Origin: Pseudactinotalea terrae
GTDB taxonomy: Bacteria > Actinomycetota > Actinomycetes > Actinomycetales > Beutenbergiaceae
DNA: 64,000 nt
NCBI RefSeq assembly: GCF_009733845.1
Contig: NZ_WNXZ01000002.1
Location: 647,828-711,827, forward strand
Direction of reading: 5' to 3'
Under the pieces are notes generated by a model. The model saw only the letters and a program-made list of their open reading frames with translations, did no database searches and had not been told where the DNA came from. Within the stretch, counting starts at the first letter, position 1. Each line of letters starts with the position of its first letter. A program made the translations under genes and the position numbers. Shown piece by piece: positions 44,840 to 45,649 of the stretch.

Positions 44840-44866
44840 GGAATGACGAAGCAGCGTCGTGACGTT
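44840..44866 (+). promoter_or_regulatory. Candidate SigR-type promoter of sigR
   Basis: GGAAT (44840-44844), 19-nt spacer, GTT (44864-44866). This fits the -35 GGAAT / -10 GTT form used by SigR/SigH. It points at sigR, and GTG 44876 lies 9 nt after the GTT, near the expected transcription start. A spacing of 18 is the usual optimum, so 19 is near but not ideal. Confidence 0.6.
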
Positions 44867-44875
44867 GACATAGGC

Positions 44876-45010
44876 GTGACAGAGTCGACCGCCACCGGCA
44901 CCGAACGTGCCCGCGCGAGCAAGCCCGGCTCCACCGGCACCGGCGGACGGCCGACCCCTTGCGGGCCCCCGGCACGGCGGGACCGCCGTCGAGCACTAGG
45001 CTCGTACCTG
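44876..45010 (+). other. In-frame 45-codon 5' extension of sigR (putative long isoform)
   Basis: GTG 44876 opens a frame with no stop into the sigR ATG at 45011, adding 45 residues rich in T, S, G, R and P (beginning VTESTATGTERARASKPGS). In Streptomyces coelicolor a stress-induced upstream promoter yields a longer, unstable SigR isoform by the same layout. Here the extension is seen directly; its translation is inferred. Confidence 0.5.
44997..45002 (+). promoter_or_regulatory. Housekeeping -10 (TAGGCT) for the short sigR form
   Basis: TAGGCT lies 8 nt before ATG 45011, giving a leaderless or nearly leaderless transcript for the normal-length sigma factor, independent of the SigR-type promoter. 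Confidence 0.6.
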
Positions 45011-45649
45011 ATGTCCGAGCAGGGTGAAGGTAGCGAGACGGTCGCCGAGGTGGCCGAGCAGGAGCATGCGCGCGAGGAGAGCCAGGCCGAGCGCGACCAA
45101 CGCTTCGAGGACGAGGCGATGCCGCTGATCGACCAGCTCTACGGTGCGGCACTGCGGATGACGCGCAACCCGGCCGATGCCGAGGACCTGGTCCAGGAGA
45201 CCTTCGCCAAGGCGTACGCGGCGTTCCACCAGTACAAGCCCGGCACCAACCTCAAGGCGTGGCTGTACCGGATCCTCACCAACAGCTTCATCAACACCTA
45301 CCGGAAGAAGCAGCGCGAGCCGCTGCAGTCGAACGCCGACGACATCGAGGACTGGCAGGAGGCGCGCGCGGCATCGCACACCTCGCGCGGCCTGCGTTCG
45401 GCCGAGGCCGAGGCTCTCGACCTCATCGGTGACGACGTCATCAAGCAGGCGCTCTCGGAGCTGCCCGACGACTTCCGGATGGCGGTGTACCTCGCCGATG
45501 TCGAAGGCTTCGCCTACAAGGAGATCGCCGAGATCATGGACACCCCGATCGGCACCGTGATGTCACGGCTGCACCGGGGGCGTCGCCAGCTGCGCACGCT
45601 GCTGGCCGATCACGCCCGTGACCTCGGTCTGGTCAGGGAGGGACGATGA
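45011..45649 (+). CDS. sigR: ECF sigma factor SigR/SigH (thiol-oxidative stress)
   Basis: A 212-aa group-4 sigma factor. Region 2 shows LIDQLYGAALRMTRNPADAEDLVQETFAKAYAAF and NLKAWLYRILTNSFINTYRKKQREP. Region 4 shows LPDDFRMAVYLADVEGFAYKEIAEIMDTPIGTVMSRLHRGRRQL. This matches actinobacterial SigR/SigH, which is held by the redox anti-sigma RsrA and turns on thioredoxin and mycothiol genes after disulphide stress. The rsrA gene overlaps its 3' end (ATGA). Two start sites are possible: ATG 45011 (used here) and the in-frame GTG 44876. Confidence 0.93.
   Translation: MSEQGEGSETVAEVAEQEHAREESQAERDQRFEDEAMPLIDQLYGAALRMTRNPADAEDLVQETFAKAYAAFHQYKPGTNLKAWLYRILTNSFINTYRKKQREPLQSNADDIEDWQEARAASHTSRGLRSAEAEALDLIGDDVIKQALSELPDDFRMAVYLADVEGFAYKEIAEIMDTPIGTVMSRLHRGRRQLRTLLADHARDLGLVREGR

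Follow-up and report, generated by a model that had tools for sequence, protein, structure and literature searches.

The sigma factor gene sigR of Pseudactinotalea terrae is preceded by two promoter motifs and two in-frame start codons, an arrangement that would yield a long isoform, SigR', in thiol stress and the short SigR otherwise, with the long form likely degraded. We assign this reading a probability of about 0.62. The gene lies in a stretch of 64,000 nucleotides (contig NZ_WNXZ01000002.1, positions 647,828 to 711,827; hereafter the window) from a 4.76-Mb actinobacterial genome. The short form of sigR (45011..45649, + strand, 212 amino acids) matches TIGR02947 with 336.3 bits (cut-off 251.55) and overlaps through the sequence ATGA with rsrA (45646..45903, + strand), which encodes a zinc anti-sigma factor (TIGR03988, 77.2 bits, cut-off 62.5; PF13490). 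By these profile matches, a SigR-type extracytoplasmic function (ECF) sigma factor and its cognate anti-sigma factor share an operon, as in a SigR/RsrA thiol-stress module.

Two promoter motifs and two in-frame starts precede sigR

The upstream motif p2 (44840..44866, + strand) is composed of GGAAT (44840-44844), a 19-nt spacer and GTT (44864-44866). It is predicted to be autoregulatory and matches exactly the SigR consensus GGAAT-N18-19-GTT as published (PMC9205884). After a further 9 nt follows a GTG (44876..44878, + strand), the predicted leaderless start of SigR' (44876..45649, + strand, 257 amino acids), with its first base as the predicted p2 transcription start. This GTG opens a stop-free, in-frame extension of 45 codons (44876..45010, + strand) rich in R, T, G, A, P and S. 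The second motif, TAGGCT (44997..45002, + strand), is the predicted -10 element of a housekeeping-type promoter, p1, and ends 8 nt before the short start ATG 45011. At motif level, the locus thus has both promoter features of the Streptomyces coelicolor type, i.e., a SigR-dependent promoter before an in-frame upstream start and a separate downstream promoter for the short form. The initial annotation had described this layout from the window, and all its motifs, distances and the frame proved exact to the base on re-check.

Chance expectation differs between the two motifs. The p2 motif is found once in the window with 0.29 expected, and at least once in 27 of 100 shuffles, which is modest on its own; TAGGCT-N8-ATG is also found once, with 0.04 expected, and has a low chance of arising at random. 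In the whole genome, 34 GGAAT-N18/19-GTT sites compare with 3 for the reversed pattern. GGAAC-N18/19-GTT was considered as a second promoter class and set aside (99 sites vs 36 reversed in the genome), being too noisy gene by gene.

We compared the locus with sigR regions of relatives in two sets. The first comprised 110 loci, 107 of them distinct; one search was limited to the best 80 of 564 relatives, and near relatives are therefore favored. The second set (90 loci from 89 genomes) was hand-chosen for family spread from the listed matches and is a non-random sample. Pooled, they contain 191 distinct sigR loci, 181 with the p2 motif, and some of the family groups used below are our own grouping. 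In the family of the window, all 24 genomes surveyed have the complete layout: a SigR promoter, an in-frame GTG or ATG 7-9 nt after GTT, an unbroken frame free of stops and frameshifts between the two starts, and a TANNNT element ending exactly 8 nt upstream of the short start (TAGGCT in 23 and TAGGGT in one). This family also includes Occultella glacieicola (L004 = L032) and Ruania albidiflava (L012 = L033); the sigR region of one of the two same-genus genomes is that of Actinotalea caeni NZ_WNXX01000026.1 (L003 = L031).

Beyond the family, all of the 107 distinct loci of the first set except L105 have GGAA[TC]-N18/19-GTT no more than 450 nt upstream of a conserved sigR anchor, and in 103 of these 106 no stop interrupts the sigR frame from the motif onward. 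Of the 90 loci in the second set, 81 have the motif, 68 an open frame and 34 an in-frame ATG or GTG (RTG) at +7 to +12, counted from GTT. Overall, 110 of the 181 motif loci are leaderless-type and open, and 50 are open with a Shine-Dalgarno (SD)-like site before an in-frame start; this SD class is loosely defined, with TTG and short SD words accepted, so that a fraction of these 50 could be fortuitous. It is through such an SD site that other lineages seem to arrive at the long form. Five extra loci from other families were mixed: L278 is leaderless-type, L273 and L277 have the motif but lack an in-frame start at +7 to +12, and the motif is absent from L275 and L276. Among 14 named control genomes, Corynebacterium glutamicum was the sole match. 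One locus titled Bifidobacterium breve (L046) has a sigR upstream region near-identical to that of the actinobacterial L052; the bin is probably mislabelled. As judged from these sequences, it is conservation in relatives that carries the weight, and the layout is not chance.

Phase and context of the long start

In the first set, RTG follows GTT at +9 in 62 loci, all 62 in frame with sigR, at +8 in 15 (12 in frame) and at +10 in 6 (6 in frame). When a single RTG at +8, +9 or +10 was taken per locus in any frame across the 181 motif loci, 103 were in frame and 4 were not; with +10 taken first, the count was 105 to 2. The leaderless-type loci have the RTG at +9 in 80 of 110 cases and a pyrimidine directly before it in 101 of 110. 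GTT, which we take to be promoter positions -12 to -10, would place an RTG at +9 exactly at the transcription start, and the long start is predicted to occupy the 5' end of a strictly leaderless mRNA. The leaderless character initially claimed for both starts is hence supported for the long one, whose RTG has the commonest SigR-promoter spacing. Among the SigR-type sites of the whole genome, 30 of the 34 were taken as loci; an RTG falls at +7 to +11 in 19 of these 30 (sigR included) and exactly at +9 in nine, with the qualification that an RTG near these sites does not always open the gene.

It is very improbable that this RTG is kept as an initiation preference of RNA polymerase and not as a start codon. 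Such a preference would agree with the start-site context, a pyrimidine and then a purine, which is conserved too. However, it cannot fix the phase with a start codon 9-82 codons away, as found in 103 of 107 loci, nor the similarity at residues 2-9 described below, and the same idea was rejected for mycobacteria using RCG and RTA controls, as described in PMC4633059.

Promoter p1 and the short start

The short start was chosen as the in-frame ATG closest to the sigma body, ignoring the promoter; the interval searched contains such an ATG in 139 of the 181 loci. TANNNT ends exactly 8 nt before it in 113 of these 139 loci, and at 6 or 7 nt in none. Of the 181 loci, 71 have TAGGCT itself somewhere between p2 and sigR; in 68 of them the next ATG follows at gap 8, always in frame. 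Frame constraint was considered as the full reason for this spacing and explains it only in part: gap 6 puts TAG in the SigR' frame, and gap 7 does not. Nine scored loci have no recognizable long start and TANNNT at 4-10 nt, and 7 of them still use gap 8.

At 483 other coding-like open reading frames (ORFs) on the same sequences, many of them orthologous sigR neighbors and hence not independent, TANNNT peaks at gap 6 (56) and gap 7 (40), with only 5 at gap 8, and a control hexamer is flat. The base before the RTG is C in 74 of the 96 gap-6 and gap-7 genes, in contrast to G before the ATG in 103 of the 113 gap-8 sigR loci, where C or T precedes that G in 111. This G-before-ATG pattern at gap 8 is present in 21 of 27 family groups scored. 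From the base context at sigR of relatives and at other genes, p1 transcription probably starts at G 45010 (+ strand), 7 nt after the -10 element, and would give 5'-G-AUG. ATG 45011 would then carry a one-base leader and is probably not strictly leaderless, so that the initial claim suits the short start less well. The leader may weaken translation of short SigR, and by analogy we propose it as the counterpart of the GTC-start brake in Streptomyces. A different reading of p1, compatible with two isoforms, takes the short ATG as strictly leaderless, with a start 8 nt from the -10 element that is peculiar to p1 and involves no brake. The five other genes with gap 8 speak for it; the prevalence of gaps 6 and 7 with a preceding C elsewhere, and the pyrimidine-G context at sigR, speak against it, and we regard it as possible yet rather doubtful.

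In the 92 leaderless-type loci with p1, no SD-like word was found before the short start, compared with 7% in the background, and p2 mRNA should therefore yield little of the short form. Seven other coding-like ORFs of the window have TANNNT 6 or 7 nt before their start, at 23778 and 45942 on the + strand and at 59638, 44245, 39254, 38666 and 25043 on the - strand; several other window genes thus look leaderless.

Reading frame and N terminus of the SigR' extension

The extensions of these 92 loci have 40 different lengths between 9 and 82 codons with the start still in frame, and the phase has therefore been kept through many length changes. Across 126 loci (92 leaderless-type and 34 SD-type) there is no stop between the two starts, whereas 200 dinucleotide shuffles of the same loci contain 33.5 stops on average and at least 18. 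An open frame alone was dropped as proof, given that the frame in the window is already open from 44744 and that 80 of the 92 extensions are also open in one alternative frame. Frame +1 was set aside as a control, as TAGGCT and GTGA create stops there by construction. Since few stops occur in one alternative frame and those in the other arise partly by construction, the argument relies on shuffles and phase; with frame openness being weak evidence by itself, we used them together with a comparison of N termini.

This comparison covered extensions with 26 or more residues, 69 of them leaderless-type and 42 SD-type. Between the two types, residues 2-9 are more alike than shuffled windows with a z-score of 16.9, vs 1.1 at residues 10-17 and 0.2 at residues 18-25; these scores are inflated by kinship of the loci, equally so in the control windows. 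When each family group was represented by a single random locus and only cross-group pairs were counted, residues 2-9 and 4-9 exceeded the shuffles in 150 of 150 draws, residues 5-10 in 144, residues 11-16 in 121 and residues 17-22 in 84. A LERP-like word is present in 25 of 110 leaderless-type and 8 of 50 SD-type extensions within residues 1-12; at residues 13-24, scorable in extensions of at least 24 residues, it occurs in 2 leaderless-type and no SD-type extensions. The SigR' extension of three Ruania-type genomes (L008, L009, L012 = L033) contains a conserved CGPDSC with two cysteines, a possible redox feature.

Predicted SigR regulon and Clp genes

ORFs were scanned at 27 of the genome's 34 SigR-type sites. 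Judged by motif only, GGAAT-N18/19-GTT promoters are found at thiol-redox genes, and the predicted regulon includes a thioredoxin, a DsbA-like protein and ClpB. Further predicted members are F420-dependent, PPOX and luciferase-like oxidoreductases, efflux pumps and several ORFs without a family. Four clpP matches, arranged as two separate pairs (C15:3868-5092 and C7:1295826-1296973), and two Clp_N proteins are present in the genome; one Clp_N protein is ClpB, whose gene has a SigR-type promoter, and the other is likely ClpC.

Weighing the two-isoform reading

Several observations weigh against this reading. The layout is not universal: 20 of the 181 motif loci have no recognizable long start, one is leaderless-type with a stop, and the p2 motif is missing in 10 of the 191 pooled loci. 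In one family (f22), 4 of 10 loci are closed and 2 of 10 lack the motif. The mostly open alternative frame has only 12 stops in the 92 loci. The extension is also weakly constrained, with a pooled ratio of nonsynonymous to synonymous differences per site (pN/pS) of 0.65 in 55 nearest pairs vs 0.087 for the sigma body. In base composition at the three codon positions, the extension departs from an ordinary gene (0.69/0.82/0.78 in the window vs 0.70/0.41/0.90 for sigR; 0.738/0.716/0.797 across the 92 extensions). The N terminus of the window itself, MTESTATGTERA, has no LERP-like word and matches the class motif poorly. Finally, the strict motif, the only form searched for, gave no SigR promoter near the likely clpC or any of the four clpP genes in the stretches scanned.

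The low constraint and the open alternative frame would fit a p2 that merely boosts transcription, with the upstream GTG being incidental and p2 mRNA translated into short SigR and RsrA. We hold this to be quite improbable in view of the in-frame RTG in 103 of 107 cases, the absence of stops in 126 loci, the N-terminal residues common to leaderless-type and SD-type loci and a short start that has no SD-like word ahead of it in any of 92 loci. In 13 pairs of equal length, pN/pS is 0.47 in frame vs 1.15 and 1.80 out of frame. As far as these ratios indicate, selection on the extension is weak but in the SigR' reading frame. Together, phase, spacing and start-codon conservation strongly support two promoters and two starts for sigR.

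SigR' might also be made as proposed while its extension serves another role, e.g., altered RsrA binding or promoter choice. The extension sequence is unlike that of Streptomyces, no strict SigR promoter was found in the stretches scanned near clpP and the likely clpC, and in a different protein, Streptomyces SigH, an N-terminal extension alters promoter choice according to PMC9205884. Nevertheless, the sole tested relative, S. coelicolor, uses its extension for Clp turnover, as described in PMC5472188, and a short conserved N terminus on a variable linker fits a degradation tag. We thus find another role unlikely, though less so than an incidental GTG.

Discussion

The circuit itself is the known SigR' circuit. 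As described in PMC5472188 and PMC4921905, the SigR' made from p2 of S. coelicolor is extended by 55 or 58 residues, unstable and a substrate of Clp. Likewise, the short SigR of Streptomyces is restrained by a GTC start and IF3, with evidence for an RsrA excess (PMC5472188). The window has in common with S. coelicolor sigR the SigR-dependent upstream promoter, the in-frame upstream start, the separate short-form promoter and the orthologous sigma/anti-sigma pair, as far as these are set out in PMC5472188, PMC4921905 and PMC6282962. What differs is isoform selection by 5' ends, the extension sequence and the p1 start. S. coelicolor short SigR is described with a AGGAGGTG ribosome site and a GTC start (PMC5472188), whereas the two starts here have no SD site and lie at the predicted 5' ends of mRNAs. 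The extension has 45 residues here compared with 55-58 in S. coelicolor, and another sequence. Also, p1 of S. coelicolor is described as WblC-controlled (PMC4921905), whereas we looked by eye for an AT-rich WblC-type element before p1 of the window and saw none.

Other actinobacterial sigma factor genes share parts of this layout. In Mycobacterium tuberculosis, sigE and sigH have two promoters each, the upstream one recognizable by SigH (by SigE or SigH for sigE), and the sigEp1 mRNA is leaderless; the account in PMC4921905 mentions no long isoform in the sections that treat these genes. The orthologous C. glutamicum operon sigH-rshA has several promoters, as here, with starts mapped at three positions (22, 89 and 93 nt upstream) and SigA-type -10 hexamers, and the corresponding part of PMC3489674 reports no second isoform. 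Among mycobacterial leaderless genes, some RTGs predict new in-frame upstream starts of annotated genes, as here; unlike the window, the cases presented in PMC4633059 are single genes and not a paired long/short switch, and p1 here predicts an RTG at +2 and not +1.

In the literature searched we recognized no account of a leaderless SigR' or of the one-base leader, and an earlier mention by Kim 2009 or Kim 2012 is possible. The title of Kim 2009 reportedly contains the words 'in actinomycetes', which suggests that wider SigR' conservation had already been noticed.

Motifs, frame, spacing and conservation were read from the sequences; for transcription starts, translation, RsrA behavior and degradation we infer the following scheme. 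In unstressed cells, mRNA from the housekeeping-type p1 would begin one base before ATG 45011 and yield short SigR alone, bound by RsrA. Thiol oxidation would inactivate RsrA, and freed SigR would fire p2. The p2 mRNA would begin at GTG 44876 and be translated leaderless into SigR' with 45 extra residues. Because there is no SD site before the short ATG, p2 mRNA would yield almost only the long form, and the mRNA 5' end would choose the isoform. With its short conserved N terminus and variable linker, the extension probably targets SigR' for fast proteolytic breakdown, as in Streptomyces, so that the amplified response would fade. In analogy to this known circuit, SigR' might hence be short-lived and response-limiting. 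More tentatively, and with less than even confidence, we suggest that across actinomycetes the 5' end is a SigR isoform switch, combining a strong leaderless RTG at +1 and a conserved N-terminal degron of about eight residues with an invariant one-base leader at p1 (5'-G-AUG), a translational brake that takes the place of the Streptomyces GTC start and keeps SigR below RsrA.

The SigR' circuit is known from Streptomyces. Here, the transcription start would pick the product, without a regulatory protein or a ribosome site, and the leaderless and open layout is found in 110 of the 181 surveyed motif loci. Two routes, leaderless and SD-type, lead to similar first residues; these residues are a likely working part of the extension and provide a concrete degron candidate. 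The fixed 8-nt gap and the G before the ATG at p1 may be a simple way in which a bacterium might set its sigma factor below its anti-sigma factor.
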